Source of the DNA: Oceanobacillus timonensis
GTDB lineage: Bacteria > Bacillota > Bacilli > Bacillales > Amphibacillaceae
Reading direction: 5' to 3'
DNA length: 64,000 bases
Assembly (NCBI RefSeq): GCF_900166635.1
Contig: NZ_LT800497.1
Coordinates: 3,706,344-3,770,343 of the forward strand
The notes under the pieces were generated by a model, which was not told the DNA's origin, ran no database searches, and worked only from the letters and a program-made list of their open reading frames with translations. The first letter of the stretch is position 1. Each line of letters starts with the position of its first letter. Position numbers and translations under genes: made by a program. Positions 7,057-25,897 of the stretch are shown in pieces.

Positions 7057-10000
7057 TTAAAACCTCCTTATGGTTGCTTCTACTGCGTTCTGTTCATTGA
7101 CATATGCCCTAACGCCCTCTTTGTTATCATAGACGTTTATTTCAATAGGCTGCCTTCTAACATTTACATTTGCATTTACTCCAGATTGTACTTGAGCAGT
7201 AGCATTTCGCTTTATGCCTTTCAAGCTGGAACTAATCTGTGATGATTTCATGTCCATCTTTGGATTAAATGACTTCGTTGCCACAGATGCCATACCCGCA
7301 CTGGTATTGGCGACTTTACCTTTCATCCTATCAATACCTTTGATATACCCTTCAAAGGTATTGATACCGAATCCACGAAATACACGGGATGGTGAGTTAA
7401 TCCCTAATAGATTTTTAGCACCTTCAACAGCGTCACCTACAACGCCTTTTGCAGCATCAACGACATTTCCAGCCATGTCTTTAATACCGTCAATTAATCC
7501 CTGTATGATATCCGTTCCAACGTCGAATAAGTCAACTTCTCCGAAAAAGTCCATCACGTTACCCCAGATATCTGAAATCGTATCAAAAACGGAATCCATA
7601 GCTTCGCTCACTGCGTCTATAATATCACTGAATATATTAGACACCGTATCGAAAATAGAACTAACAACGTCCGATACAGTAGAGCTGATGCTATCCCAAA
7701 TGCTTGATATCGTATCCCAGACGCTATTCATAACGCTGCTGATTGTACTTAGAATATTGTTAAATATACTGCTTACCGTATCCCATATACTACTTAGCAC
7801 GCTTGATACAGTCGATACAATCGTATTCCACACTGATGATGTCACACTGGAAATTGTATTCCAGGTATCCGATATGAAACTTTTAACGGAATTGAATACG
7901 CTTGTTGCGACGGATTTTATTCCATTCCAAACGGAACTCAGTACGCCTTTTATAGCGTTCCACACTGCAGAAGAAACGGATTGGATGATATCCCAAACGG
8001 TAGATATCAAATCCTGAATTCCATTGAACTCCGTATTTGCCAGTGTTTTGATCCCGTTCCAGATGGAAGTGAGTACCGATTTTATTCCATTCCATACAGC
8101 GCTTGAAATAGATTTAATCGTATTCCATACCGTGGACACAACATTCATAACGTTATTAAATGCGCTGGTTGCGATACTTTTGATTCCATTCCAGACAGTT
8201 GTAAGGACTGATTTAATCCCGTTCCATACTGTGCTGGATACGGTTTTTATCGTGTTCCACACTGTTGTTACTGATGACTTAATGCCATTAAATATCGGGG
8301 AAACGATAGAAACCAACGTGTTCCAAATGGTTGTCAGTACTGATTTAATTGTGTTCCACACAGTCGTTGAAACAGATTTTATTCCATTCCACAATTCCGT
8401 GAAAAAGGATTTCAATTCAGTGAAAACCGTTGTTGCACCAGTTACTAATATATTCCATGCTGTCATCAATGCAGCTTTGATAGCATTCCACACCGTTACA
8501 GCCACAGTTTTTATCCCGTTCCATAACTCTGTGAAAAATGTCGACAACTTATTCCATACTGTCGTAGCGATCGCAACGATACCATTCCACACAGTTGTGA
8601 GGACTGTCTTAATAAAGTTCCATACAGTTGTTGAAACTTCCTTAATCTTGTTCCATAGTTCGGTGAAGAACGTAGACAATTTATTCCAAACTGGTATCGC
8701 AATCGAAACAATTCCGTTCCACACTGAAACTAAAATAGTTTTAATAACATTCCACGCTGCTCTAGCAGTTGTACTTATAAATGTCCATACACCTTGAATA
8801 AAGTCTGCAATGCCTTGGAATATTGGAATAGCAACCGATAGTATACCTTGCCAAATAGATGATAAGAAAGAAGTTATGGTTGTCCATACAGCAATTGCTT
8901 TTGTTTTTACTCCGTCCCATACTGAAACAAAGAAATCGACAATTCCAGTCCATATGGTTGTAGCTATTTCTTTAATAGACTGCCATGCGCTGGATAAAAA
9001 TGTAGTAATTGCAGTCCATGCTGCGGAAGCTTTATTTTGCGTTCCTTCCCATACTGAGCTGAAGAAATTCGTAATTGCTCCCCAAACTGTTGAAGCAATG
9101 CTCTTTATCTTCTCCCATGTGGTAGATAAGAAGTTGCTAATTGCTCCCCATACTTGAAGGGTAACAGCTTTAATCTTATCCCAGTTCTGGTATATGACAG
9201 TTGCCAGAGCGATTACAATTGATATTGCGATAGTGACCGGATTAATTAAACGTAACAAGAATTTGCCGATATTTAATATCCACGGTCCAACTGTAGTAAG
9301 TATATTGATGAATCCGGAAAATGCAGTGACAACCATCGTGATAAATGGCAGTAAAGCTAGTAAAGCTCCGCCTAGTAACGTACCAAGTGAAATCAATTTA
9401 CCTATAATTGGGTTGTTCTGCATCATGGAACTAGCCCATTCAAGGAATCCGTTTGCTAGATCTAGCATCTTGGAACCTAATGGAGCTAGTGCAACGCCCA
9501 AGTCTATAATAAACTGAATAACGTTACCTATCAGATCAATTACTTTCGGGCCATTCTCTTGCACGTATTGGATAAATTTCTGGAACCCGTCCGATTCCGC
9601 TATTGTAGATGACCATTCACGGAACCTTTTCATCATCTGTCCTAATGCATTAAATATAATTTCGCTGTTATCACTAAACGCAACAAACAGGTTGATAATT
9701 CCGTTAATAGCGTCGCCAAATATACCTCTGATTGTTGGCATGTTAGTTTTTACATAATCCACAAAAGACTGAAATGCTTTTGACTCACTTAGCCCACCCG
9801 TCCATTCCTTGAAACTTTCGGTCATTTCCAAGAAACCGGTGGACATTGATTTCGCGAGTGGATCAAACGCCACCATCATGTTTCCGAAGCCGGCAATCAG
9901 ATTGCCAATTGCTTTTCCCAAGGTTTCTACATAAAATCCTGCTGTATTCCCCATCCATTCAAAAAACGCTTGAGCGCCGCTGCCATTAATTGCTTCTTTA

Positions 10001-11088
10001 AATGAATTCGCAAGGTTTTCCATCGCACCCACAGTTGATGCCACGGCAGGTTTAAGTTGTTTCAGTGCATCTGTTGCACCTTCCATAAATGCTGTAAAGA
10101 TTCCATATATCGGCTCATAAAATTCGGTACGGAAATCTTTCCAAACGCTTTTGAATTCACTAATAGCCTCTATCGTCGCCTGCATGTAGCCCGGCAATTT
10201 ATTAAATGCTTCACCGCCTTTTTTAAGGTTTTGTTCCAAGCCGATCGCTCGACTGGCCACTTCGCCCATCAGGACAGCAAAAGGACCAAACCCTGCGGCG
10301 GCAGACGTGGCAGCACTTCCTAATCCTAAAACTCCGCCTCCCAATACGCCGATAGCATTACCAGCCGCCATGATAGCCGGAACTAAGGATGCAATGATTG
10401 GCACTAATGTAGATGAAAATGCCATCGCGATTCCGCCAACCATGCTCCGAGTGACGGTTCCGAATGACTGCATAAAGTTTGCCATCCGTTTAATGGCATT
10501 TTGGAATCGTTGTACTTCGGATTCAGCTGTGTTGAATACTTTCTTATTCATGTCTCCAAATGATTTTAGGCTTGCTAAAGCACTTTTCGCTTTTGCTCGA
10601 ATTGGAATATTGACCCGTCGTTCAAGAGCTTGTTTAACGGCTTGGAGCATCCCCATTTTACGGGTTGCTTCTGACGTATCAGCATCTACGTTCACAGTAT
10701 TTTTCGACTTAGTAAAAGCTTGCATCATCTTCCTGGCTTTACGGATATTACGCTGTAAAGGCTTTGTGTCTGCATCAATCGTCTTTTCAGATTTTCCTTT
10801 ATCAAAGCGCTCTACAGTTCGTTTGGCGGTTTCTACCGATTTATTAAATGGTTTCGTATCCGCATCAATATCTACTGTCGCATCTTCTTTGCTGAAATTA
10901 TCCAATGTCTTTTTAGCTTTTTTTATATTCGTATTAAAAGACTTTGTATCAGCGTTCAGTTCTGTATCTTCAACGGACTCCGATTCTCTTTTGAATTTTT
11001 GGGTTACTTTTCGTGCTGTATCAATTGCCCGTTTAAATTTACTAGCATTTGCTTTCAGCTCCGCCTCTATACTGTAATTGGCCATCAT
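7057..11088 (-). CDS. Tail tape measure protein
   Basis: A 1,343-residue protein, the longest of the phage, as expected for the ruler of tail length. Residues 1-190 hold about five units of some 36 residues built around 'DADTKxFNxxIxKAKKTL'. Residues 210-600 include hydrophobic membrane-like stretches. From about 650 to 1,190 there is a long run with Trp or Phe every 11 residues (VWNGIKSVLTT, VWNTIKSISSA and variants). The C-terminus has the usual LLGINSPSRVFRGFG and EGYIKGI motifs. No transglycosylase or peptidase domain is obvious. A ribosome site AAAGGAG precedes two ATGs at 11,088 and 11,085. Repeats cause long spurious plus-strand frames. Confidence 0.95.
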   Translation of the reverse strand: MMANYSIEAELKANASKFKRAIDTARKVTQKFKRESESVEDTELNADTKSFNTNIKKAKKTLDNFSKEDATVDIDADTKPFNKSVETAKRTVERFDKGKSEKTIDADTKPLQRNIRKARKMMQAFTKSKNTVNVDADTSEATRKMGMLQAVKQALERRVNIPIRAKAKSALASLKSFGDMNKKVFNTAESEVQRFQNAIKRMANFMQSFGTVTRSMVGGIAMAFSSTLVPIIASLVPAIMAAGNAIGVLGGGVLGLGSAATSAAAGFGPFAVLMGEVASRAIGLEQNLKKGGEAFNKLPGYMQATIEAISEFKSVWKDFRTEFYEPIYGIFTAFMEGATDALKQLKPAVASTVGAMENLANSFKEAINGSGAQAFFEWMGNTAGFYVETLGKAIGNLIAGFGNMMVAFDPLAKSMSTGFLEMTESFKEWTGGLSESKAFQSFVDYVKTNMPTIRGIFGDAINGIINLFVAFSDNSEIIFNALGQMMKRFREWSSTIAESDGFQKFIQYVQENGPKVIDLIGNVIQFIIDLGVALAPLGSKMLDLANGFLEWASSMMQNNPIIGKLISLGTLLGGALLALLPFITMVVTAFSGFINILTTVGPWILNIGKFLLRLINPVTIAISIVIALATVIYQNWDKIKAVTLQVWGAISNFLSTTWEKIKSIASTVWGAITNFFSSVWEGTQNKASAAWTAITTFLSSAWQSIKEIATTIWTGIVDFFVSVWDGVKTKAIAVWTTITSFLSSIWQGILSVAIPIFQGIADFIQGVWTFISTTARAAWNVIKTILVSVWNGIVSIAIPVWNKLSTFFTELWNKIKEVSTTVWNFIKTVLTTVWNGIVAIATTVWNKLSTFFTELWNGIKTVAVTVWNAIKAALMTAWNILVTGATTVFTELKSFFTELWNGIKSVSTTVWNTIKSVLTTIWNTLVSIVSPIFNGIKSSVTTVWNTIKTVSSTVWNGIKSVLTTVWNGIKSIATSAFNNVMNVVSTVWNTIKSISSAVWNGIKSVLTSIWNGIKTLANTEFNGIQDLISTVWDIIQSVSSAVWNAIKGVLSSVWNGIKSVATSVFNSVKSFISDTWNTISSVTSSVWNTIVSTVSSVLSSIWDTVSSIFNNILSTISSVMNSVWDTISSIWDSISSTVSDVVSSIFDTVSNIFSDIIDAVSEAMDSVFDTISDIWGNVMDFFGEVDLFDVGTDIIQGLIDGIKDMAGNVVDAAKGVVGDAVEGAKNLLGINSPSRVFRGFGINTFEGYIKGIDRMKGKVANTSAGMASVATKSFNPKMDMKSSQISSSLKGIKRNATAQVQSGVNANVNVRRQPIEINVYDNKEGVRAYVNEQNAVEATIRRF

Positions 11089-11089
11089 G

Positions 11090-11416
11090 TCACTCCTTTC
11101 TATTCAGGTTCATAGCAAGTTCTGCCGGAGAAGGCTGATCATTGATTGACTCTGTTTTTTCTTTTCGTTTGGTAAAGTCTTCATCAATCTGTTTCAATAC
11201 CTTCTCATAATCAAAAAAGTCCTCGAAATTTTCATATACATATTCTTCTTTAGGCTTTTTCTCAGTACCGACATTTTTCGTTGCGGATACGTTTCTGTTT
11301 AAAAAAGCAGATAAATGCATATTGTGTAATTCATCAATTTCTTTATACTGCTGTGCATACCGCTTGTAATGAAACTCCGATAAAGTCATCATTTCTACAT
11401 CACGTAATCGATTCAT
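11090..11416 (-). CDS. Tail assembly chaperone, frameshift product C-terminal part (T-like)
   Basis: 108 residues from the ATG at 11,416, acidic and charged (FEDFFDYEKVLKQIDEDF). The frame stays open well upstream of this ATG. Across the stop of the preceding gene (11,460-11,458) it reads RDGLTYNEVVIYALRKLG before MNRLRDVEMM. TYNEV...ALRKLG is typical of the T extension of siphovirus G/GT chaperones. The two frames are related by -1, so the real product is most likely a G-T fusion made by -1 ribosomal frameshifting rather than a separate protein. I found no perfect X-XXY-YYZ heptamer. It would bind the tape measure protein encoded next. Confidence 0.8.
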   Translation of the reverse strand: MNRLRDVEMMTLSEFHYKRYAQQYKEIDELHNMHLSAFLNRNVSATKNVGTEKKPKEEYVYENFEDFFDYEKVLKQIDEDFTKRKEKTESINDQPSPAELAMNLNRKE

Positions 11417-11457
11417 GCCGAGCTTTCGTAATGCATAAATGACAACCTCGTTATAAG

Positions 11458-11844
11458 TTAATCCGTCTCTGCTGTTTCCACTGCTTTGATTTTCGGTTCC
11501 TTCTTGAGATCGTCCGGAACTAGATTTCGGGTCATAGGTCGCTTTCCCAACTCTTCAATGACCTGTTCCCCAAACGCTTCAAAACCTTCTTTTTCGGCAA
11601 TGTCATCCAATACTTTTTCCAACTCTTCATAAGTTTTAGGCGACTTCTTGTCATGAGAAGATGCAGCTTTAATTACTTTGGAAAGACCGATGATATTTCC
11701 GGATTGTAATTTAGGTACAAGCATTTCTAAGCCTTCACCTAGATTCGCACCTTCAATTTCAAACCCTAATTCTTTATCAATTTCTGTTAATGTACGTAAT
11801 CCAAAAGATAATTCAATTTCTCGTCCGTTAAATGTAATATGCAT
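11458..11844 (-). CDS. Tail assembly chaperone (G-like)
   Basis: 128 residues, with FNGREIELSFGLRTLTEIDKEL at the N-terminus, the pattern of the Firmicutes tail assembly chaperone family (TAC_12-like). The C-terminus is charged (DDLKKEPKIKAVETAETD). The ATG has TAGGAGGAATT just upstream. It lies between the major tail protein and tape measure genes, where the chaperone that coats the tape measure is always found. Ribosomes are likely to shift -1 near its 3' end to make the longer G-T product. Confidence 0.85.
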   Translation of the reverse strand: MHITFNGREIELSFGLRTLTEIDKELGFEIEGANLGEGLEMLVPKLQSGNIIGLSKVIKAASSHDKKSPKTYEELEKVLDDIAEKEGFEAFGEQVIEELGKRPMTRNLVPDDLKKEPKIKAVETAETD

Positions 11845-11861
11845 ATAAAATTCCTCCTATA

Positions 11862-11890
11862 TTAAAAAAAGGGGCAAAATAGCCCCTTTT
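11862..11890 (-). terminator. Intrinsic terminator after the major tail gene
   Basis: On the minus strand AAAAGGGGC (11,890-11,882) pairs perfectly with GCCCCTTTT (11,875-11,867), with a 6-nt loop and a seven-T run. It starts inside the last codons of the +1 extension frame. It probably sets a high ratio of tail tube protein to downstream chaperone and tape measure transcripts. Confidence 0.8.
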
Positions 11891-11949
11891 ATCCTAATTT
11901 AAATGATTGTCCAATGGTAGCTTCCCCTATTGGCAGGGGCTGACTAGGG
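11889..11949 (-). other. Programmed +1 frameshift signal and 18-residue extension of the major tail protein
   Basis: The gene ends ACA-CCC-TAG. A +1 slip of the Pro codon from CCC (11,949-11,947) to CCT gives SQPLPIGEATIGQSFKLG and a TAA stop at 11,889. After a 4-nt spacer, CCCCT (11,939-11,935) pairs with AGGGG (11,928-11,924). The loop CCAAT (11,933-11,929) pairs with ATTGG (11,915-11,911), an H-type pseudoknot. The capsid gene has the same arrangement with the same distances. Listeria phage PSA is a known case of +1 frameshifting in both genes. Confidence 0.85.
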
Positions 11950-12507
11950 TGTTTCTTCTCCGCCACCTTCGTCTTCCTCTTCATCATCTGAAGCCAGGCC
12001 ATCATCTGCCGGGTCATCAGCCAAAATGTCATGGAAAACATAGTTCAGCGTTTCAATATCTCCGTCAGGTAAAGTCACTCTACCTTTTTGACGGGTACCT
12101 GATGTTAGGAAAGTTCCTTCAACTTCCGGATTGTCCTCTGAACCGTTGGTAGCTTCCCATTCGCTGATATACCCTTGTCTGTATTCAGCTCCGAACTTTG
12201 TGCTACCCTCAGAACTATCACGATCTGCAAGGTCTACTTCCCACATTTCTACTGGATAGTCTTCCACAATAGAGTCTTCCAGCATTGTAAATGTCGGGTC
12301 TTTTACAGACTGCAATGCAGTTACTGATACTTCATCTTCCAGTGCTGCAGAACCTTGCACCGCTCCATCTTTTGTTGGTGTGGACTCCCTGTCACGGGAA
12401 TATGATTTACTGTGTTCTGTTTGAAAAACTAGCTTAGCTGCTTCTGACGCTTCACCAAGCTTACGGAAATATAGCACTTTGTGTACGCCATTTGCTATTT
12501 TAGCCAT
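11944..12507 (-). CDS. Major tail tube protein
   Basis: 187 residues in the zero frame, of the TP901-1/phi13 major tail family: MAKIANGVHKVLYFRKLGE start, central YPVEMWEVDLADRD, and a beta-rich body. The C-terminal tail is very acidic, then GGGEETP. It polymerises as hexameric rings into the tail tube. A second form of about 205 residues is predicted by +1 frameshifting at the final CCC-TAG (see the separate entry). Ribosome site AAAGGAGGACAAAT precedes the ATG. Terminator-like hairpins stand on both sides of the gene. Confidence 0.9.
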   Translation of the reverse strand: MAKIANGVHKVLYFRKLGEASEAAKLVFQTEHSKSYSRDRESTPTKDGAVQGSAALEDEVSVTALQSVKDPTFTMLEDSIVEDYPVEMWEVDLADRDSSEGSTKFGAEYRQGYISEWEATNGSEDNPEVEGTFLTSGTRQKGRVTLPDGDIETLNYVFHDILADDPADDGLASDDEEEDEGGGEETP

Positions 12508-12530
12508 TTATTTGTCCTCCTTTTTACATT

Positions 12531-12551
12531 AAAAAAACACTCATTAGAGTG
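12531..12551 (-). terminator. Small intrinsic terminator before the major tail gene
   Basis: Minus-strand CACTC-TAAT-GAGTG hairpin (12,551-12,538) followed by seven T. The stem is only five to six pairs, so termination may be partial. It lies just past the stop of the tail terminator gene. Confidence 0.55.
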
Positions 12552-12552
12552 C

Positions 12553-12960
12553 TTAAGAAATTCTGTATTCTGCTGTAATAATGCTGTGTAACAAGTCATC
12601 ATCCGTGGAATTGTCATAGATTGTATTCGCATTAAGTGTGTCGTATCGCAGATAATAGTTTTCTAGTTTTGACAAACCTCTTAATGCCTGCTTTAACGCG
12701 AAAACCATTTCGGAATGTCTGGCCCGATTATTTGCATAACTCCATACATGCACGGTCTGTGCTAGATTAGCAGTGATAACCTGCTTATTATCCACAATAT
12801 CATTGTCTGTGGTTTCTCCCACATGCACGAATGGATACGGACCGTCATATTTCGTATGCGAGTAATCAATCGTGGTGTATCCCAATGCCAGTGATTTACT
12901 AAACACAGCATTAAATAATTGTATATCTGGTGCCTGCATATCACTCCACCAATCTTTCAA
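12553..12960 (-). CDS. Tail terminator / DUF3168-like tail completion protein
   Basis: 135 residues, with the pattern of small tail terminator proteins: an N-terminal helix (IQLFNAVFSKSL), then YPFVHVGET, a strand NLAQTVHVWSY and the helix SEMVFALKQALRGL. These ring proteins cap the tail tube and join it to the head. It overlaps the preceding HK97 gp10-like gene by 20 nt and precedes the tail tube gene, as expected for this position. Confidence 0.75.
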   Translation of the reverse strand: MKDWWSDMQAPDIQLFNAVFSKSLALGYTTIDYSHTKYDGPYPFVHVGETTDNDIVDNKQVITANLAQTVHVWSYANNRARHSEMVFALKQALRGLSKLENYYLRYDTLNANTIYDNSTDDDLLHSIITAEYRIS

Positions 12961-13288
12961 GGTCTGATAAGAATTGCGGGCGTTGTTTCAAGAAAGAGTC
13001 GCCCAAAAACATTGTTCCTTCCATAAAACGAGTGCCCCATTCAATAAAGCCACTATGTTCAGATGGCGACAGTGTTTTGTAGTGCATCTTATTCACCCTG
13101 TTTGTATCTAATTTACGAACCGTATAGCCAGTTGCATACCCTTTATTAAATCGCTGTTGGCCATTCTTGGCGGCTTGTCGAGTCATTTCAATCGTATTTT
13201 TCTTAACAACCTCACCAACGTCGTCGTCAATATCATCATGCATTCTATCAAGGTTTTTTAATAAGTCATCAAATCCATCTAAGTCCAT
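12941..13288 (-). CDS. HK97 gp10-like head-tail/tail component
   Basis: 115 residues with the family pattern: N-terminal helices (DDLLKNLDRMHDDID...), a basic centre (GYTVRKLDTNRVNK) and the closing segment HSGFIEWGTRFMEGTMFLGDSF. That closing segment is the hallmark of gp10-like neck or tail completion proteins. It overlaps both neighbours (by 10 nt and 20 nt), a tightly packed connector operon. Likely acts at the neck of the virion. Confidence 0.8.
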   Translation of the reverse strand: MDLDGFDDLLKNLDRMHDDIDDDVGEVVKKNTIEMTRQAAKNGQQRFNKGYATGYTVRKLDTNRVNKMHYKTLSPSEHSGFIEWGTRFMEGTMFLGDSFLKQRPQFLSDLERLVE

Positions 13289-13590
13289 TCGCTCACACCC
13301 TCTAAATAAAAAACACTCTCTGACCTGTGAGGTACATGCCGGAGAATGTTATATTTTTGAGTGCCTATCACTGCCTTATCAGCAACGCCTGTATATGGCC
13401 TTTGAAGCCTTGCTGTTGCAACGTTTCTTTTATATGAACCAAAGACGGCTTCTGTCTTATCTAAACTGACAGCAGAGACGTTACAAGGTAAAGTGACGCC
13501 CTCATCTACAACAATTTCCGTCTTTCCCGTCTCCGGAGTGTACTGCCTGCCGCTGGATTCGTGTAAGGTGATTCTATCTGTATAATTCAA
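13279..13590 (-). CDS. Head closure (stopper-like) protein
   Basis: 103 residues, a small beta-rich protein (DRITLHESSGRQYTPETGK..., RPYTGVADKAVIGTQKYNILR). Position and size fit the head closure/stopper protein of SPP1-like necks (gp16 role) and the minor capsid family. It overlaps the head-tail connector gene by 4 nt upstream and the gp10-like gene by 10 nt downstream. The family call rests mainly on order and size. Confidence 0.65.
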   Translation of the reverse strand: MNYTDRITLHESSGRQYTPETGKTEIVVDEGVTLPCNVSAVSLDKTEAVFGSYKRNVATARLQRPYTGVADKAVIGTQKYNILRHVPHRSESVFYLEGVSEWT

Positions 13591-13916
13591 AGGAAAAACA
13601 CCTTCCCCCGACGTTCCTTATGTGGAATATAAGTTTCTAAAATCCCCTGGTAAGGCAGAAAGTCATCCTCATTGTAAGTGACAGAACGTCCTTCCACGGA
13701 TTCAGATGCCATACCCTCTGAACCTAACTTTTGAAAACGACTGATTGCCATTTCTTCCACAATAAAATCAAGTTCAGAAGGTATGTTATCCAAGTCCGCA
13801 TGTTGTTTCAGCCATATTTTTAAATGTGACTGAACATTTTTGACAATGATATCAATGACTTTATCCTGTAATGTATCATCAATGCCTAAAATGGCTTTTA
13901 CATTATTTTTAATCAT
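13587..13916 (-). CDS. Head-tail connector (gp6/gp15-like adaptor)
   Basis: 109 residues, mostly helical: MIKNNVKAILGIDDTLQDKVIDIIVKN at the N-terminus, followed by VEEMAISRFQKLGSEGMASESVEG and YNEDDFLPY. The 'RxxKLGSEG-ESVEG' segment is characteristic of the phage gp6-like/SPP1 gp15-like adaptor family. It docks under the portal ring. First gene of the four-gene connector cluster. Confidence 0.85.
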   Translation of the reverse strand: MIKNNVKAILGIDDTLQDKVIDIIVKNVQSHLKIWLKQHADLDNIPSELDFIVEEMAISRFQKLGSEGMASESVEGRSVTYNEDDFLPYQGILETYIPHKERRGKVFFL

Positions 13917-13925
13917 GGAATCACA

Positions 13926-13994
13926 TCACTTTTTCTTATTACTTTTCAATCTACCGTCTTTTTTCGTACCTTTGCTAGGTTTTCCTTTAGCCAT
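13926..13994 (-). CDS. Very small basic phage peptide (22 aa)
   Basis: ATG at 13,994 follows a strong GGAGGGTG ribosome site (8 nt away) that lies in the last codons of the collagen-like gene. The product is MAKGKPSKGTKKDGRLKSNK plus two Lys. It is extremely basic and has no Cys or aromatic residues. Short 'KPSKGTxxDxRLKxN' peptides are found in the same slot in other phage head modules. Function unknown; nucleic acid or capsid binding is a guess from charge. Confidence 0.6.
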   Translation of the reverse strand: MAKGKPSKGTKKDGRLKSNKKK

Positions 13995-13996
13995 AA

Positions 13997-14269
13997 TTAT
14001 TCACCCTCCGTATTGCCTTCAAGCGTATCGACGCGGGCAATAAGTTCATTCCATTGTGTTTCAGTCGGAAACCCATCTTCTCCATCTGCCCCCGCTGGAC
14101 CTTGCTCACCAACAGCTCCTTTGTTACCTTTTTCACCCCTAGGTCCTTGTTCGCCTTGTGGACCCTCAGGACCCTGTTCTCCAGCAACGTCTATCAAGTC
14201 CTGCACATCTTGCTCCGTGATGACGTGGCCTTTTACTAATCGCTCTTTCAATTCTGCTTTCGTAGCCAT
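13997..14269 (-). CDS. Collagen-like protein in the head module
   Basis: 90 residues. Residues 1-30 form a charged helix (ATKAELKERLVKGHVITEQD), then 12 consecutive Gly-X-Y triplets at about residues 31-67 (GEQGPEGPQGEQGPRGEK...), then a C-terminal segment with FPTETQWNELIARVDTLEG that could be a trimeric coiled coil. This is the plan of phage collagen-like structural proteins, probably a trimeric fibre or capsid decoration. It lies between the capsid and connector genes rather than among the tail fibres. Confidence 0.8.
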   Translation of the reverse strand: MATKAELKERLVKGHVITEQDVQDLIDVAGEQGPEGPQGEQGPRGEKGNKGAVGEQGPAGADGEDGFPTETQWNELIARVDTLEGNTEGE

Positions 14270-14282
14270 TACTTAATCACTC

Positions 14283-14343
14283 CTATCCAATTTGAAATGT
14301 TTCTCCAATGGCGGCTTCCCCAATTGGTTGGGGTTCGTTAGGG
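14283..14343 (-). other. Programmed +1 frameshift signal and 18-residue extension of the major capsid protein
   Basis: The capsid gene ends ACT-CCC-TAA. A +1 slip from CCC (14,343-14,341) to CCT gives NEPQPIGEAAIGETFQIG and a TAG stop at 14,283. CCCCA (14,333-14,329) pairs with TGGGG (14,322-14,318), and loop CCAAT (14,327-14,323) with ATTGG (14,309-14,305). Spacer (4 nt) and linker (8 nt) lengths equal those at the tail gene. The closing pair changes from T-A to A-T between the genes, a compensatory change that supports a real RNA structure. Confidence 0.85.
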
Positions 14344-15309
14344 AGTTTCCCCACCATCTTCACCGCCATTGCCTGGTTCGGTTTTAGCAAATGCATCATC
14401 TTTGAGAACCATGAAACCAACATCCATAGTGGCACGGATTGCAATCAATTCACGCTCGAATAAATTAATCGGCTCGTTGTTTTCATCCACAATGGAAGAT
14501 AATTGTGCTTCTTCAGAAATGGCATAGCTCAAGTTGTACGGAATGCCATATCGAACATAATTGAAGTTCCCGCCGAACAACTCACCTTTATCCATTTCGG
14601 CAGAGTCTAAATCAGCTACTGGTGAACCGTCTAACGTATTTCCGCTACGGCTATACAAGCGTACCGGGTCTGTGATTGTTCCGTCCTCTTGCTCGTAACC
14701 ATCAACAATCCGGCGTAATGCAGAACGGTTTTGCTTTTTTGATACATAAGCATTAATGTCAAAGCCGTCCTCATTCACTAAATCGGAAAGATCAAAGAAA
14801 TTTTCATTTGTAATTCCACCTTGCACTACATGTCCTGCATCTGTAATAGAATCCTGTAATGATTGTTCAAACGGATTGTCCACTCCAAGAATAGTCGCTT
14901 CATCGAACTTTTTATAAAATGCTTCTGCGACTAATGGGCGCACTTGCGTAAAGAAGTCAGATAGTGTGTACTGCAAAAACTCACGCGACACCGGTACTAT
15001 AACGCCCAATTTCTTGGCGGTCATCTTTGCAGTGAGCCATTGTGGTTTAGAAGTACGGATGACTTCACCCTCACCAACCCAGTAAGCTCCAACGCCTTCA
15101 GCGAGATATTGAAATTCTTTTTCCTGTTTAGTCATTTCCTCGTACTGCGCAAGTTGCATCATGACAGAATTGGAAATGATGTCTTTCAGCACTAATGTTC
15201 CTTGTTCCTTTGGGATTTGACCATTTTTCGCGTCTTGCAACAGCACATTGTCCGGGTCAAATTCAGCAAAATGCTGTAAGTTAAGATTTAATAGCTTTTC
15301 TTTTTTCAT
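14338..15309 (-). CDS. Major capsid protein (HK97 fold)
   Basis: 323 residues in the zero frame, with an LNLQHFAEF leader, then the N-arm and an HK97-type core: AEGVGAYWVGEGEVIRTSKPQW, AKKLGVIVPVSREFL and a C-terminal RATMDVGFMVLKDDAFAK. Only a short N-terminal arm is present, because scaffolding is supplied by the separate upstream gene. The gene ends in an acidic, Gly-rich tail (GNGGEDGGETP) very like that of the tail protein. A longer form by +1 frameshift is predicted. Ribosome site TAGGAGGAT lies 11 nt before the ATG. Confidence 0.92.
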   Translation of the reverse strand: MKKEKLLNLNLQHFAEFDPDNVLLQDAKNGQIPKEQGTLVLKDIISNSVMMQLAQYEEMTKQEKEFQYLAEGVGAYWVGEGEVIRTSKPQWLTAKMTAKKLGVIVPVSREFLQYTLSDFFTQVRPLVAEAFYKKFDEATILGVDNPFEQSLQDSITDAGHVVQGGITNENFFDLSDLVNEDGFDINAYVSKKQNRSALRRIVDGYEQEDGTITDPVRLYSRSGNTLDGSPVADLDSAEMDKGELFGGNFNYVRYGIPYNLSYAISEEAQLSSIVDENNEPINLFERELIAIRATMDVGFMVLKDDAFAKTEPGNGGEDGGETP

Positions 15310-15324
15310 ATTGATTTCATCCTC

Positions 15325-15933
15325 CTATTTAATTAATCTGTTTTCCTGCGCTATTTTAGCAACAGAAGGTATTTTATTGCTTGACGTTCCACTGTTGCCA
15401 GCTGGTGGTGTGTCTTGGCGTAATTTTTCTTTAACAGCACCATTCACAGCATCATCAAACGCCTTTTTAAATTTATTGATGTTCTCTAACGTTTTTTCTG
15501 CGTCTTCCCCAAGTAAGAAATCAGCAAAATCAGAAGGCAGTTCTTTCTTCTGTAAGTCATCCACTGCCTCAGAACGTAATTCAGAACGTTTAATCTTTGC
15601 TTCTCGTTCCTGAATATCCTTTTCACGTTGAGTTAGCTGTTCTTCTTCTCGTTCTTTTTGAGAAAGTTTAGAGAGACGTTTCTGCTCTTCTAGGGCATCC
15701 TTAACAGCCTTATCGATAGCTTCTTGCTGTTTAACCTCCTGGTTTTGCTTGAAGGTTTCGACGGCTTTACTGACTTGACTGTCTACCTCGGATTTTGTGA
15801 AAGTATCTTTATTACCAGATTTATCTTCCGGATTATCCTTATCCTCAGGGTCATCCGTTTTATTTTCTGGGTCATCTTCCGGATTGTCAGCAAAAAACTG
15901 TAAGTTCAATTTCAATAAATCTTCTTTCAACAT
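15325..15933 (-). CDS. Scaffolding protein (DUF4355-like)
   Basis: About 202 residues, highly charged: an acidic N-terminal segment rich in DPED repeats, then a long Gln/Lys/Glu-rich helix (residues 60-150) and a C-terminal basic tail. This is the usual make-up of phage scaffold proteins placed just before the capsid gene. The ATG at 15,933 is 8 nt from AGGAGG and preferred over ATG 15,939, which is only 2 nt away. Its start (LLKLNLQFFADN) matches the capsid leader (LLNLNLQHFAEF). Confidence 0.88.
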   Translation of the reverse strand: MLKEDLLKLNLQFFADNPEDDPENKTDDPEDKDNPEDKSGNKDTFTKSEVDSQVSKAVETFKQNQEVKQQEAIDKAVKDALEEQKRLSKLSQKEREEEQLTQREKDIQEREAKIKRSELRSEAVDDLQKKELPSDFADFLLGEDAEKTLENINKFKKAFDDAVNGAVKEKLRQDTPPAGNSGTSSNKIPSVAKIAQENRLIK

Positions 15934-16089
15934 TTTCATATCCTCCTAATCCCATGCAGTCATTGCCTATCAATCTTTCATCAAATAAAAACAAGCCCCG
16001 TACAGTCCTTTCACAGCCCGTCCAGTGCTTATCCCTATAAAACTATTCAATTAATAATTAACGCCCACACAGTATTATATTTAGGCAAA

Positions 16090-16121
16090 ATAAAAGCACC
16101 TAACGCTTGTCTGCTAGGTGC
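16090..16121 (-). terminator. Intrinsic terminator before the scaffold gene
   Basis: Minus-strand GCACCTA (16,121-16,115) pairs with TAGGTGC (16,102-16,096), with TTTTAT after it. It lies directly after the small gene ending at 16,124. Positions 15,940-16,089 hold no gene and no clear promoter that I can see. Confidence 0.6.
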
Positions 16122-16123
16122 GG

Positions 16124-16312
16124 TTAATATTCAAACGTATTCGATGCTGTATTCATTACTCTGTTTGTTCTAATGAGCATATCGGCAGCAATATCCTTCA
16201 AGTAACTTTGACGAATTATTACCACCTCGCCTTTTACTTCGACCGATACTTCTTCTCCATTTATTATCCTTGCAATGTCTTTTTCAGACAAAATGATATG
16301 ATGTTTAGGCAT
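16124..16312 (-). CDS. Small unknown phage protein (62 aa)
   Basis: Starts MPKHHIILSEKDIARIINGEE and continues with a beta-hairpin-like VSVEVKGEVVIIRQ. The second half is helical. It overlaps the end of the DUF2829-like gene by 8 nt, so the two are probably translated together. No family recognised. It could be a partner of the DUF2829 protein; that is only suggested by the overlap. Confidence 0.6.
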   Translation of the reverse strand: MPKHHIILSEKDIARIINGEEVSVEVKGEVVIIRQSYLKDIAADMLIRTNRVMNTASNTFEY

Positions 16313-16523
16313 GTTCTACTACCTCCCATTTCTCTGAAAATAATTCGATATTTGTTTCTTTCCACGGCACCCTACCGAAACGACTTTCAACGTATAAATA
16401 CGGTGCAGTCATTTTGCTATGCTCATCCGGAAATTGAGCACGAATTACGACATCATCACTCCATTGTGGCAATCTCATGCCTTTACCTTGTTTCACTTGT
16501 TCAAATGCTTCTCCAAAGTTCAT
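16305..16523 (-). CDS. DUF2829 (Tad2-like) protein
   Basis: 72 residues. The N-terminus MNFGEAFEQVKQGKGMRLPQW and the closing segment PYLYVESRFGRVPWKETNIELFSEKWEVVE give the DUF2829 pattern (NFGEAL..K.GKk.aR..W ... vpW.ps..D.l..DW.vv). Tad2, the anti-Thoeris protein that binds the gcADPR-type signal, belongs to this family. Whether this member binds a nucleotide signal is not shown by sequence alone. It sits in the head module between MuF and scaffold genes, not in the early region, so it would be made late. Good ribosome site (GGAGGGATAAC). Confidence 0.7.
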   Translation of the reverse strand: MNFGEAFEQVKQGKGMRLPQWSDDVVIRAQFPDEHSKMTAPYLYVESRFGRVPWKETNIELFSEKWEVVEHA

Positions 16524-16586
16524 GTTATCCCTCCTTCCATCATTTACAAAGGCTACTACCTGTAGCTAGGAGATAGATGGACCACC

Positions 16587-16751
16587 TTACTTTTCTGCCT
16601 CAGAAGGCTTTACATTTTCTATGTTATTATCTGGTGGTTTTCCTTTTATAATTGGAGTATCTTTTGTAACAGTATTATTCTCTGTCAATGCATTGGCGAT
16701 ACGCTTCAAGCTATTGTCAATTGACTTTAGATATTTTTCTGTTTTATCCAA
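16587..16751 (-). CDS. Small phage protein with TTG start (54 aa)
   Basis: TTG start at 16,751 with AGGAGTGG 6 nt before it. The product begins (M)DKTEKYLKSIDNSLKRIANAL, a clear amphipathic helix, and ends in a flexible Pro/Lys-rich tail. It directly follows the MuF gene. This type of small helical protein is common downstream of minor head genes. Function unknown. Confidence 0.55.
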   Translation of the reverse strand: MDKTEKYLKSIDNSLKRIANALTENNTVTKDTPIIKGKPPDNNIENVKPSEAEK

Positions 16752-16762
16752 ATTAACCACTC

Positions 16763-17704
16763 CTATAAAGTGTATTTACCTTTCCGTTCTGCAAAGAAAG
16801 CTTCTCTCCATGCTCCTGCAAGCAGCACCGTACTCGACCTACAAAAAGGATGCATAGGCTCAGCATTAATGCCTGGCATCATATTTTTCACTTTGAACTT
16901 CTTACCGTTCAAACTTCTGCATGTCTTTGTGGTACGGCCATCCATCATCGCGATGAATTCATATTCAGCTTCCGGGTCATCCTTGGTCAAGGCTTCATAA
17001 CTTAGCTTCTGAGCCCCTGCCTGCACCCTAGCTGTTTCTGTAATTAATAACCTTCTAGCTTCAAAAGTGGTAACATCAAAACGCTCCCGTATATCTGGTA
17101 CGAATCTATCTGGATGAACACCGCGGATAATGGTGCTGTTCATAATCGTATCTAGTTCATCACGCAGTTTCTCCATGTCATCCCAAATTCGTGAGGACCA
17201 TGTCGCACTATGGAATGAAGCGCCAACGAGTGATAGCAGCGTTTCTGTGGAAATAACCATATCAGCACCTAATATACCTGCCTGTCTTGCCACTTCCTCA
17301 ATCCCGGCCTGTTCCAGGTATTCCTGAAAGGTAGTCTCTATATCATTTGCCATTGCAACAAGATGCGCATTTAAATACATCATCAGTAATTCTTGGCGGT
17401 TGATATACATTTTCGTGTTGTAGGTGGACAGCTCTCGATTCGCTTTATCGCTAAAATTCTTTTCTTTGACGTATCTTGCAGCAGTATCCTGGAAAGCTTG
17501 TACATCCATTTCAGAAACCCGCTTTTTAGCTTCTGCAGGAGTTAGTTTATTCTTAACAGCATACCTTGCATAAAAGCTTTGAATTTCCTTCTCCGCCTCG
17601 CGCAGAGCCACATTGATAATTCGGCGTATTTCCTTCACAATTTCCTCGTCTTTCATTTGCTCCTGTTTGATGTTTTCACGTTCACGATCTTGCCAATATG
17701 ACAT
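16763..17704 (-). CDS. Minor head protein, SPP1 gp7/MuF family
   Basis: 313 residues. The C-terminal MuF domain is seen at about residues 245-300: MDGRTTKTCRSLNGKKFKVKNM, then MPGINAEPMHPFCRSS. Its conserved Cys and His residues match the family pattern. The N-terminal two thirds are helical. Such proteins bind the portal and take part in head assembly or DNA ejection. There is no extra toxin domain at the C-terminus, unlike some MuF fusions. Confidence 0.9.
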   Translation of the reverse strand: MSYWQDRERENIKQEQMKDEEIVKEIRRIINVALREAEKEIQSFYARYAVKNKLTPAEAKKRVSEMDVQAFQDTAARYVKEKNFSDKANRELSTYNTKMYINRQELLMMYLNAHLVAMANDIETTFQEYLEQAGIEEVARQAGILGADMVISTETLLSLVGASFHSATWSSRIWDDMEKLRDELDTIMNSTIIRGVHPDRFVPDIRERFDVTTFEARRLLITETARVQAGAQKLSYEALTKDDPEAEYEFIAMMDGRTTKTCRSLNGKKFKVKNMMPGINAEPMHPFCRSSTVLLAGAWREAFFAERKGKYTL

Positions 17705-17718
17705 TTGATATCACCGTC

Positions 17719-17874
17719 CTATAACCACAAGACGCTTATAATAAATGAAGCCATTCCAGCTATGCTGACAGCTGTTAAACTTTTTCTAAGTTTAGTGTCT
17801 TGCTTTTCACCAACTACACCCATGAAGCCTAAAACTATTACGATTAATAATACAATTTGAAACGCTATGACCAT
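17719..17874 (-). CDS. Small phage membrane protein (51 aa)
   Basis: ATG at 17,874 behind GAGGG at the 3' end of the portal gene. Two hydrophobic segments are seen: residues 2-21 (VIAFQIVLLIVIVLGFMGVV) and 34-51 (LTAVSIAGMASFIISVLWL), joined by a short charged loop (GEKQDTKLRK). Probably a two-helix inner membrane protein. Its role among head genes is unknown. Confidence 0.6.
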   Translation of the reverse strand: MVIAFQIVLLIVIVLGFMGVVGEKQDTKLRKSLTAVSIAGMASFIISVLWL

Positions 17875-17885
17875 AATTCAATCCC

Positions 17886-19301
17886 TCAACTTTCTACCTC
17901 CATATAACTTGAAGTCTGTCGCTGTTGTTTCCGTTCTTCTTCACGCTTAGCTATCTCTTCTTGCGGATTTTCCACAAATGACAACAGGCTTAGTTTGGTC
18001 TCATCGGATAACTCACCACCAAGACTTGTGAAAGAGTCAATCTCATCTTTAATAGACTTCGGAAGATTCGGCGTAAACGTAATAGAAATGCTGTTTGGTT
18101 CAAAGCTACCCTCACTCGCAAGCGTCATAATATTATTAATTAAACGGTATCGCTCACGTAAGGATTTTTTGAACAGCCTTTCTTTTGTGGCTCTTTTCTG
18201 TTCCAGTCCGAACAATTTATATTTCAAAGCTTCGCCGGACTGATTTCCGGAAAAGGAATCGTCGTCCATATTCGGCGTGTACGTAAACATATGAATGTCA
18301 TTTTTCACTCGATCCTTGTACGATTCCGTTCCCTGCACATCATATTTTTTATAGATGTAGTCCGCGTCAGCAGAAGTCTGTTTCCCTTCTGCATCCGGCT
18401 CTGTCTGTAACAATATTAAATTGTGTTCTTTCATCTGTTTGGCGTCGTTCGCGTCTATATCCACATTGCCTGTAATTTTCAGCATGGCATCATTAAAATC
18501 TGTCATGTAGTTTGCTGTGTCAGATTCAGCTTCATCGTATAAATCAATCAATGACAGCACCTTTTCAAAGTCTCCACGACGAAAACGATTATTGCTGTAT
18601 TCGATAATGGGCACGCCATCAAAAGCATGTGACTGTTCGCTTAATAAAGTCAGACTGTAATCTTCTCTTAAATCATAGGAATTAATCACGCTGCTTGTAT
18701 ATAAATAAACAGTCGTCTTCTCGGAAAAAGCATTGTATAGATATCTGACACCAGCTATCGGATTCTGTTCCACCGTGTCATCATAAATAACAAATGTATG
18801 CTGGACTTCTGAAACTGTGAACCTTGTTTCATCTGCCTGCGAACGATATAGCAATTCATAAGCCCGGCCATAGATTGATTGGTCAAGTACCAACTCACTA
18901 TTATGCTCATCCGCGTCATTTACTCTATTAATCTCCCGCAGCTGTTCATCAACTGAATCAATGGGATAGTTGGTTTTTAAAGGAATACCCACCATATAGC
19001 CTTGAATAAATCCAGATACGTACTCACCAAATGCATGAACGGCTCTGTTATCTGCCAAATGGTCCTCGCGCCTGCGGTTCGGCCTTAATATATTTGTATT
19101 TTCAGCTTCATAGTACGACTGTAATGTCTCCAAGCGCGGACGTTGATGCAGCTGATGATGCTGTATCATTTCTGATAAGTCATCCAAGTTATCTAACAAT
19201 GCATTAATGCCTCTGTACGTATAATGCATGTTGGATTCTTTAGAAAAACGCTTAACAGATCTTGTAGAAACTAACCCTTTTTCAAACTCATTTACTTTCA
19301 T
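17886..19301 (-). CDS. Portal protein, SPP1 gp6 family
   Basis: 471 residues, of the usual length for the family. Features: YYEAENTNILRPNRRREDHLADNRAVHAFGEYVSGFIQGYMVGIP near the N-terminus, a wing region with PIIEYSNNRFRRGDFEKVLSLIDLYD, and the clip/stem helices with NQSGEALKYKLFGLEQKRATKE. These are hallmarks of SPP1 gp6-like portals. It forms the dodecameric DNA gate of the head and recruits terminase, whose gene is next upstream. Confidence 0.92.
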   Translation of the reverse strand: MKVNEFEKGLVSTRSVKRFSKESNMHYTYRGINALLDNLDDLSEMIQHHQLHQRPRLETLQSYYEAENTNILRPNRRREDHLADNRAVHAFGEYVSGFIQGYMVGIPLKTNYPIDSVDEQLREINRVNDADEHNSELVLDQSIYGRAYELLYRSQADETRFTVSEVQHTFVIYDDTVEQNPIAGVRYLYNAFSEKTTVYLYTSSVINSYDLREDYSLTLLSEQSHAFDGVPIIEYSNNRFRRGDFEKVLSLIDLYDEAESDTANYMTDFNDAMLKITGNVDIDANDAKQMKEHNLILLQTEPDAEGKQTSADADYIYKKYDVQGTESYKDRVKNDIHMFTYTPNMDDDSFSGNQSGEALKYKLFGLEQKRATKERLFKKSLRERYRLINNIMTLASEGSFEPNSISITFTPNLPKSIKDEIDSFTSLGGELSDETKLSLLSFVENPQEEIAKREEERKQQRQTSSYMEVES

Positions 19302-24910: not shown

Positions 24911-25897
24911 TTAGATCATTTCCTCGTGTATCATTTTTATTGCTTTAAATATCGGATATATTTGCTGTGGTACTACTGCATTTCCTAATCCTCTAATTCT
25001 GTCCACCCGATCGGAAACCCCATTAGCCACTCGACCCACATCGGGTTCAATTGCCCAGTAGTCTCCGCCCGGATAGCGTCTGGCAGACTGTTGTTCAGGC
25101 TGCGTCCCTTTTCTTTTAGTTTTTCCGGTGTCCTTGCTCCCCGATAATCCCTTGCAACTGGAGTCGGCCATAATTTCGTTACAGCTGTATATAAATTGTT
25201 GCAGGAAGGATTTTTCGCCTTCTTCTCGTTGTAATTCTTGGTTCCCTCCTTGTTGAATCTCTTCCTGCTGTCTCTCGTATTCCATGCATCGCTCGCAGTT
25301 GGTGTCGGCCACATTTGCGCAGATTGTGATAGGTTCACACTGTGCATGCTCCCCTCTTTCTGCTGACTGCTTTTCAGCTTGTCGGTGTACACATCTGCTG
25401 TCGTTGGAGTAAGCCACGATGAAGGTTCGTTCCCTTTTGTGTTTGGCACCGACACCTGCAGCCGGTATAACAAACGCCCCCCCGGTGTAACCGATGCTTT
25501 CCAAGTCAGAAAGCGTTCTGTCGAGCTCCATGTTGACGAAGTTAGCAACATTTTCTCCAACAACCCAAATGGGTCTAATTTCTTCGATGATCCTAAACAT
25601 TTCTGGCCAGAGGTCGCGGTCATCTTCCGTGCCTCTTCGCTTCCCGGCAATACTGTAAGGCTGGCAAGGGAACCCCCCGGAAATAATGTCAATTGTTCCA
25701 ACGTCTACACCTCCATCAATTAATGCTTGTTTATTAAATGTTTTCACATCATCAAATATCGGTACATCAGGCCAATGTTTCTGTAACACTTTCTGGCAGA
25801 ATGGCTCTCTTTCACAAAATGCAACTGTCTCAATACCTGCCCATTCAGCAGCAAGACTAACTCCTCCAATACCTGCAAACAATTCAATGGATTTCAT
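24911..25897 (-). CDS. DNA (cytosine-5) methyltransferase
   Basis: 328 residues with the C5 methyltransferase motifs in order: motif I ELFAGIGG (5-12), motif IV GGFPCQPYS with catalytic Cys78, motif VI ENV (115-117), motif VIII AKHKRER and motif X GLGNAVVPQQ near the C-terminus. Residues 165-280 form the target-recognition region, with repeated ADT/ADS segments. No restriction enzyme gene is adjacent, so it is an orphan enzyme, most likely protecting phage DNA. Over 700 nt of it a second frame is open (see the separate entry). Confidence 0.93.
   Translation of the reverse strand: MKSIELFAGIGGVSLAAEWAGIETVAFCEREPFCQKVLQKHWPDVPIFDDVKTFNKQALIDGGVDVGTIDIISGGFPCQPYSIAGKRRGTEDDRDLWPEMFRIIEEIRPIWVVGENVANFVNMELDRTLSDLESIGYTGGAFVIPAAGVGAKHKRERTFIVAYSNDSRCVHRQAEKQSAERGEHAQCEPITICANVADTNCERCMEYERQQEEIQQGGNQELQREEGEKSFLQQFIYSCNEIMADSSCKGLSGSKDTGKTKRKGTQPEQQSARRYPGGDYWAIEPDVGRVANGVSDRVDRIRGLGNAVVPQQIYPIFKAIKMIHEEMI
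24985..25701 (-). CDS. Candidate overlapping gene inside the methyltransferase (238 aa, TTG start)
   Basis: A second frame, open for 717 nt on the same strand. A TTG start lies 6 nt after a GGAGGTG ribosome site. The product starts (M)EQLTLFPGGSLASLTV and has three related W-x-TPT-x-x-D segments (WLTPTTADVY, WPTPTASDAW, WPTPVARDYRG). It ends LNPMWVEWLMGFPIGWTELE, a segment that looks like the C-terminal region of other phage C5 methyltransferases. It may be a genuine overprinted gene or a relic frame. Expression is unproven. Confidence 0.35.
   Translation of the reverse strand: MEQLTLFPGGSLASLTVLPGSEEARKMTATSGQKCLGSSKKLDPFGLLEKMLLTSSTWSSTERFLTWKASVTPGGRLLYRLQVSVPNTKGNEPSSWLTPTTADVYTDKLKSSQQKEGSMHSVNLSQSAQMWPTPTASDAWNTRDSRKRFNKEGTKNYNEKKAKNPSCNNLYTAVTKLWPTPVARDYRGARTPEKLKEKGRSLNNSLPDAIRAETTGQLNPMWVEWLMGFPIGWTELED

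Follow-up and report, generated by a model that had tools for sequence, protein, structure and literature searches.

To our knowledge, the reason why phages such as PSA and T7 extend a minority of their proteins at the C-terminus by frameshifting is still largely open. The +1 frameshifts in the cps and tsh genes of Listeria phage PSA were reportedly described by Zimmer in 2003. According to an excerpt of PMC5009743, ribosomes on PSA messages slip +1 at a CCC codon close to the 3' ends of both the capsid and the tail gene and produce C-terminally longer forms, with a pseudoknot as the signal at the capsid site and a stop codon at the other. In phage SPP1, a +1 shift at CCCUAA yields the short and long tail proteins gp17.1 and gp17.1* in amounts compatible with a 3:1 ratio, as an excerpt of PMC6316719 states. 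In this study, we analysed a stretch of 64,000 nucleotides from Oceanobacillus timonensis (contig NZ_LT800497.1, positions 3,706,344 to 3,770,343; hereafter the window). It contains a prophage whose major capsid and major tail genes each end in CCC and a stop codon, with a similar short peptide in the +1 frame. Our comparison of this peptide, hereafter the tag, with its relatives makes it probable that it is a docking peptide, by which a minority of head and tail subunits would hold accessory fibres encoded beside a tagged gene.

The virion genes of the prophage lie on the reverse strand in the customary order (terminase, portal, minor head, scaffold, capsid, connectors, tail, chaperones, tape measure and tail tip). 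As in PSA and SPP1, the slip codon CCC-U stands directly before or near the zero-frame stop. When CCCT is taken as one step, the +1 frame past CCT is open for 18 codons in capsid and tail alike, and it reads SQPLPIGEATIGQSFKLG in the tail gene and NEPQPIGEAAIGETFQIG in the capsid gene, with 10 of 18 residues identical. A degenerate DNA pattern for PIGEAxIG matched 2 places in the 4.49 Mb genome, and both were these sites. Same-genus genomes have sites that are identical to those of records named Oceanobacillus indicireducens and O. jeddahense, which points to a host of this kind. The original prediction had given the coordinates, the equal spacings, the 18-codon extensions, the 10/18 identity and the opposite closing pairs of the downstream stems (A-T against T-A), and all of these held on re-reading. 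The twin CCC-stop +1 shift sites with similar extensions in the capsid and tail genes are confirmed as real.

The closest described systems share parts of this arrangement. The original prediction had also drawn the parallel with PSA, which is right in that a CCC +1 slip is present in both the major capsid and the major tail gene. However, the two PSA extensions are not alike and neither contains the IGEAxIG motif, and the excerpt of PMC5009743 names a pseudoknot at the PSA capsid site only. PSA was considered as a source of the tag and rejected for lack of the motif; it was not among the 13 records matched by a query with the partner domain described below. The SPP1 tail tube gene likewise ends in a CCCUAA +1 shift, but gp17.1* gains 87 residues with a fibronectin type III motif, and the excerpt of PMC6316719 lists +1 shifting for the tail tube gene only. 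Immunoglobulin-like (Ig-like) and carbohydrate-binding module (CBM) extensions are likewise modules shared by different virion proteins through +1, -1 or no shift, as parts of PMC5009743 and, for TpeX of the 936 phages, PMC6669499 describe. These are whole domains, whereas the window tag is an 18-residue peptide, too short for an Ig-like domain, with a partner gene in its neighbourhood.

We next examined whether the slip site is kept in relatives. Pattern and profile searches followed by a script found the slip, the spacing, the stem and the peptide at 62 distinct +1 sites, which formed 42 clusters at 85% nucleotide identity. The original prediction had proposed a search of related phages for the motif in the +1 frame past capsid and tail stops, and the shared peptide was recovered there. 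The slip codon and the motif were partly selected for, since most of the patterns used to fetch +1 sites contained CCCTRA or the peptide. CCC-T was present in 80/80 +1 sites, most of them fetched with CCCTRA patterns; it stood directly before the stop in 78 and one codon earlier in 2. The partner-domain search used neither CCC nor the peptide, and in the loci retained from it 43/43 +1 sites also carried CCC-T. This comparison supports the claim that ribosomes slip +1 at the CCC-stop sites of both window genes. CCC is otherwise rare, with 11 of 394 proline codons in the open reading frames (ORFs) upstream of the 42 cluster representatives. The zero-frame stop came one codon later at 2 sites and 39 nucleotides past the start of the CCC codon at 1 site. 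When gaps of 8 to 22 were permitted in a scan, the matches preceded by a long ORF all showed the same spacing except L164 and L172, which had one extra codon. IG begins at extension residue 7 in 70/80 sites.

The searches also gave a measure of how widely the peptide occurs. The PIGEAxIG pattern found 90 stretches, most of them lacking an upstream frame that ended where the shift would require, and 28 loci were examined in detail. Three loci (L004, L005 and L196) looked by eye like antisense reads of what we take to be a permease-like gene and were set aside. Beyond the family, the tag profile at E<=0.001 matched 1/397 genomes of the order (the window's own), 2/398 of the class (the window's own and G762) and 1/398 of the phylum (again the window's own). 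Virgibacillus phage Mimir87 was the sole match among annotated phages, by 2/3 tag queries; the tag is present in its capsid gene as well as in its tail gene.

The tag has the consensus P-x-x-P-x-x-IG-[ED]-A-x-IG and was found on head proteins from four PHROG families and on tail proteins from three. A PHROGs scan covered 30 tagged proteins, including both window proteins; elsewhere, head and tail were assigned by likeness or ORF size. By best match, 14 of the 30 were major head proteins (phrog_10 ten, phrog_29 two, phrog_422 one, phrog_840 one; two were contig-edge fragments) and 15 were major tail proteins (phrog_88 eight, phrog_238 five, phrog_820 two). In L155 (1338-1739, forward strand), the tag follows a 134-residue protein whose best match has no function; its named matches point to head decoration and major head proteins. 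For the tail protein of L224, which carries the tag in frame, a protein-database search gave no match at E<=0.01.

The route to the tag also varies. A search of viral contigs for the domain of the proposed partner found 106 loci, of which 80 were retained for analysis, and 48 of these fitted a pattern that we call type A. These 48 loci reach the tag by a +1 shift (43), a -1 shift at GGGAAA[CG] (4: L251, L253, L254 and L276) or in frame (1). Some mix routes: L251 uses +1 after a 333-residue ORF and -1 after a 188-residue ORF, and L253 and L254 use -1 after 306-residue ORFs and +1 after ORFs of 183 and 220 residues. In-frame tags also end genes in L193 and L194. In 33 type-A loci, the sequence extends 1.5 kb or more upstream of the domain and 4 kb or more downstream of it; 19 of these had two tags, 13 had one, and 1 had none by slip patterns (L252, where the tag is in frame). 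By these results, the conserved trait is the tag rather than the shift. As separate observations, L307 has a +1 relative of the in-frame L193 site, so that related tagged genes differ in route, which suggests that a frameshift may be gained or lost by small changes; and at about position 6183 of L050 (forward strand), a 142-residue ORF is followed by a -1 frame peptide containing LPIGEAEIGSTLVIG.

A gene that accompanies the tag was sought among its neighbours. When 23 tagged contexts were compared by BLAST, a small collagen-like protein proved to be present in the largest number of them. The Mimir87 copy (ORF7) had relatives in 21/22 of the other contexts and the window copy in 16/22, and some of these matches may rest on the collagen repeats. 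In the window, it is a small protein with a collagen repeat among the head genes, encoded directly behind the capsid gene, and its C-terminal end resembles a coiled coil by eye. This gene had escaped the original prediction. Domain alignments showed that about the first 28 residues are constant (ELKxxFxTGxxPTxxDFxxLID) and that the remainder varies; 37/48 type-A partners are collagen-like. The tag was found immediately upstream of the domain in 48/48 type-A loci, which form 12 groups by domain core; 17 of these 48 lie on contigs new to the analysis, and 17/17 have the tag. Considered from the side of the tag, the domain directly follows 32 of the 33 head-type tagged sites that have downstream sequence (35 sites in all; 30 by pattern, L141 and L087 by reading). 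The sole exception is L035, where the domain follows the tagged tail gene instead. In L155, it lies directly behind the tagged decoration-like gene. Behind most tail-type sites, the next 700 nucleotides contain no partner gene, and a prophage usually has a single partner gene.

Two other explanations of the extension bear on this linkage. The extension may be a stand-alone surface peptide, a host-binding or assembly modifier like the Ig-like extensions, with the collagen-like gene as a mere module neighbour. Capsid and tail proteins with C-terminal domains produced by frameshifting are indeed described in parts of PMC5009743 and, for TpeX, PMC6669499. However, the neighbour persists beside different head families, tail genes and a decoration-like gene, also where the tag is in frame or reached by -1, and only its N-terminal domain is constant while its C-terminal part changes. 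We regard this explanation as unlikely. Alternatively, the shift may serve translation, in that ribosomes passing the stop would reach the start of the next gene and couple the partner to capsid expression, with the peptide of minor importance. The partner start does lie shortly past the extension stop in many phages. Most tail-site tags, however, lack the partner within the distance given above, the peptide residues are conserved beyond the needs of RNA pairing, and in-frame tags keep the peptide without any slip, which leaves coupling very improbable.

The association was also found at the level of genomes. Among 159 genomes of the family, the domain profile matched 9 and the tag profile (E<=0.002) matched the same 9 (Fisher p 7e-15). 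A PF05065 capsid is carried by 57/159 of these genomes, and 51/57 lack both the domain and the tag. Only the absence from the other 150 genomes is informative, since profiles A1 and A3 were built in part from tagged genomes and the threshold of E<=0.002 was chosen once the result was known. Outside the type-A loci, an in-frame IG-x-A-x-IG terminates the gene immediately upstream in 27 of 32 other domain loci, and these 27 are closely related among themselves. Among annotated phages, Flavobacterium phage lotta8-1 and crAss-like phage cr127_1 have a comparable peptide at the C-terminus of the protein encoded before the domain; the likeness is weak in VRE9_1, and in Larrie the peptide is two genes away. 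A second family of domain proteins (146-185 residues), represented by L286, L296, L274 and their relatives, was observed behind ORFs of 71-117 residues that end in the in-frame IG-x-A-x-IG.

Several points weigh against a docking tag and its partner, in addition to the overlap between profiles and tagged genomes. The type-A pattern was written after the loci had been seen, and L255, a 478-residue protein with a similar KAELK start outside this pattern, has no tag; when it is counted in, the figure becomes 48/49. The 17 new contigs include several that nearly duplicate each other or known loci. No adjacent tag was found in 5/32 of the other domain loci, and Lactobacillus phage LpeD has the domain with no tag beside it. 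When the tag profile was read at E<=0.05, it matched 11/159 genomes, and the extra two (G031 and G091) lay inside longer frames. The adjacency of tag and partner could also reflect a shared module without contact between the two.

The original prediction had placed a pseudoknot downstream of both stops. Both window sites have CCCCN/NGGGG from 4 nucleotides past the stop with a 6-base loop, and CCAAT-ATTGG pairing is possible 8 nucleotides further on; spacings are equal, and the closing pair is A-T in the capsid hairpin and T-A in the tail hairpin. We examined the two helices separately across the family. In the main stem, extension codons 4-5 pair with codons 7-9; three further registers were added after inspection. 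The register tests omit 2/42 clusters, both from L164 with a different spacing, which leaves 40 clusters of standard spacing. A full 5-bp stem was present in 39/40 clusters, whereas 2000 synonymous recodings averaged 2.1 such clusters and never exceeded 7. In the main register, which is defined by the outer four pairs, the fifth pair was Watson-Crick in 25/25 sites (T-A 13, A-T 7, G-C 5) against a shuffle mean of 9.7. The folding energy had p<=0.05 in 29/42 clusters, and the two window sites were not among them. In the control group of in-frame tag sites, where no shift is needed, the same level was reached in 3/17. The combined folding p of 3e-30 overstates the case, since the four stem registers were defined after the sequences had been viewed and the clusters are related.

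The second helix behaved differently. It was complete in 8/40 clusters, where codon choice would give 8.4, and its single free position paired in 7/15 P6 sites against 6.9 expected. With the stem far above the recoding expectation and the second helix at chance, the hairpin, and not the pseudoknot, is the element supported by the comparison. Thus, of the downstream RNA in the original prediction, the hairpin stood as a conserved feature of the family, and the pseudoknot, of the kind proposed for PSA cps, did not; in the same way, relatives keep the extension and not the pseudoknot. The pseudoknot as a conserved signal of the family was rejected on these counts. A pseudoknot may form in some members, the two window sites possibly among them. 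A contrary but weak sign is that the same free position pairs in 15/25 of the CCCC/GGGG main-register sites against 10.4 (p 0.011, uncorrected). The explanation by which twin pseudoknots, duplicated between the capsid and tail genes, drive the shift can draw on this sign and on the pairing available at both window sites; given chance-level pairing across the family, we give it very little credence.

The hairpin itself has its own contrary evidence. Taken alone, the window hairpins are not unusual (synonymous-recoding p 0.377 for the capsid and 0.257 for the tail; shuffle z -0.98 and -0.13), and the four -1 sites have weak downstream folds and no strong stem. No Rfam match was found within window positions 9000-18000. 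The strong conservation of the hairpin raises one more alternative, namely that the +1 reads arise solely from a conserved RNA structure, such as a regulatory hairpin, and that the likeness of the peptides is a by-product of base pairing. A similar peptide, however, is encoded in frame at sites that mostly lack the hairpin (3/17 in the control group have it), and A10, I12 and G13, which lie outside the main stem, are conserved while the stem registers differ. The chance of this alternative appears close to negligible. In L174 (4882-8578, forward strand), the two sites of one phage share the stem with one pair flipped (G-C against C-G, codon 4/codon 10).

We also compared the tags within and between phages. 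For 28 distinct head-tail pairs, the mean identity was 0.668 within a phage and 0.567 between head and tail of different phages (permutation p 5e-5). The values were 0.661 and 0.560 in a pruned set of 22 pairs and 0.652 and 0.553 in a hand-entered set of 17 pairs from which several twin phages were missing. Between phages, head-head tags were no closer (0.558) and tail-tail tags slightly closer (0.596). The likeness of the two tags in one phage would fit concerted evolution on one shared partner, and it would also be expected if one site had been copied onto the other. Such copying would correspond to the duplication history that the original prediction had called probable.

The nature of the partner domain was suggested by solved structures. 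The domain profile matched two fibres, AfpX13 (8uur_A, residues 43-67, E 3e-4) and a tail fiber protein (9qgo_A, residues 31-55, E 9e-4), and residues 43-67 of AfpX13 probably belong to its anchor domain. An excerpt of PMC12923769 describes that the fibres of extracellular contractile injection systems bear N-terminal baseplate anchor domains, that about 90% of the fibre genes are located behind tail_P2_I and Afp11/12-type genes, and that structures of the Photorhabdus virulence cassette (PVC) show the fibre anchoring to Afp/Pvc12. The phage partner resembles the fibre anchors of these systems (eBAP1 and Pvc13 in that excerpt) in the similarity of its N-terminal domain to Afp13-type fibres. 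It differs in that the injection-system fibres are receptor-binding and sit on the baseplate, whereas the phage partner is proposed for head and tail. The strict tag profile had no match among solved structures. A relaxed tag profile matched two PDB chains at E<=10, one of them the baseplate J-like chain 9rce_A with GIGELVIGEQFIV at 1296-1308 (E 1.6, a weak match), 15 residues before the end of the protein. This likeness is a lead rather than a result, and an IG-x-x-x-IG ending on Afp12 is merely hinted at.

The partner also has a likeness among head proteins. SPP1 gp12 is a small collagen-like head protein and a trimer, according to parts of PMC6316719 and PMC7602432. It binds the centre of capsid hexamers, and the same parts do not mention a frameshift tag for it. 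In an excerpt of PMC7602432, host adhesion is the listed role of head fibres such as SPP1 gp12 and phi29 gp8.5.

Taken together, the comparisons favour docking of a neighbouring fibre on the tag, which could proceed as follows. A minority of ribosomes would pause at the rare CCC before the stop in the capsid and tail genes, helped by the hairpin 4 nucleotides past the stop, and would slip +1 to CCU, so that 18 residues are added. As the SPP1 CCCUAA site gives short and long forms compatible with 3:1, the extended form could make up as much as about a quarter of the capsid and tail subunits in the window prophage. The PIGEAxIG peptide, with the hydrophobic tail that follows it, would then act as the docking tag on this fraction of subunits. 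The small accessory fibre, presumably a trimer, would plug its N-terminal domain onto the tag. Head and tail would thus bear a limited number of the same fibres, which would probably provide weak adhesion to host surfaces.

A wider form of this proposal can be put forward tentatively, at somewhat less than even confidence. It would be a general peptide-socket code, in which any fibre that begins with the LKxxFxxGxxPTxxDFxxLID domain would dock onto a C-terminal IG-x-x-x-IG-x-x-x-x-[IL] carried by almost any protein of the shell, tail or baseplate. Oceanobacillus and Virgibacillus phages and many viral contigs would meter the fibres by +1 or -1 shifts. Type-B contigs, one Flavobacterium phage, one crAss-like phage and perhaps contractile injection systems would carry the peptide in frame, with a fixed number of copies.

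Taken separately, frameshift extensions, portable domains and collagen-like head proteins are all familiar. In the open-licence literature that was searched, in part as excerpts, no description was found of a frameshift-metered short docking peptide on unrelated head and tail proteins together with a neighbouring fibre gene. Since a candidate partner is encoded next door, the purpose of a minority extension, here the metering of accessory fibres per head and tail, becomes testable. The system would offer a very short portable docking tag with a likely socket, a +1 frameshift signal that is a simple hairpin with strong comparative support, and cases in which a single phage appears to reach the tag by a +1 shift in one gene and by a -1 shift in another. 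The features of the window are listed in Table 1.

Table 1. Features of the window prophage at the two shift sites and the proposed partner gene (window positions).
Feature	Position	Strand	Basis or remark
Major capsid protein gene, zero frame	14338..15309	(-)	ends ACT CCC TAA; phrog_10 E 4e-47; PF05065 E 1.9e-26
Capsid slip site CCC and zero-frame stop TAA	14338..14343	(-)	CCCT read at P323
Capsid +1 extension P-NEPQPIGEAAIGETFQIG and stop TAG	14283..14342	(-)	tag profile A1 E 1.5e-9 (profile includes this sequence)
Capsid hairpin CCCCA-ACCAAT-TGGGG	14318..14333	(-)	4 nucleotides after stop; family covariation; alone not significant
Capsid possible second helix CCAAT/ATTGG	14305..14327	(-)	can pair here; not family-conserved
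Proposed partner, 90-residue collagen-like protein with N-terminal fibre-type domain	13997..14269	(-)	PF01391; first gene after capsid
Major tail protein gene, zero frame	11944..12507	(-)	ends ACA CCC TAG; phrog_238 E 2e-44; PF06199
Tail slip site CCC and zero-frame stop TAG	11944..11949	(-)	sequence reading
Tail +1 extension P-SQPLPIGEATIGQSFKLG and stop TAA	11889..11948	(-)	tag profile A1 E 4.1e-9 (profile includes this sequence)
Tail hairpin CCCCT-GCCAAT-AGGGG	11924..11939	(-)	4 nucleotides after stop; family covariation; alone not significant
Tail possible second helix CCAAT/ATTGG	11911..11933	(-)	can pair here; not family-conserved

Three further observations were made. The tail-chaperone ORFs of the prophage (phrog_183 and phrog_441, window 11090-11844, reverse strand) are laid out like the usual G/GT pair. 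A DNA methyltransferase gene of the prophage (window 24911-25897, reverse strand, phrog_363) has BLAST relatives in 2 other tagged contexts. The record PQ554527.1 is labelled Acinetobacter phage D2SVT, and its capsid match equals that of Enterococcus phage vB_ElaS_B1578 in identity, E-value and bit score; its host label may be wrong.

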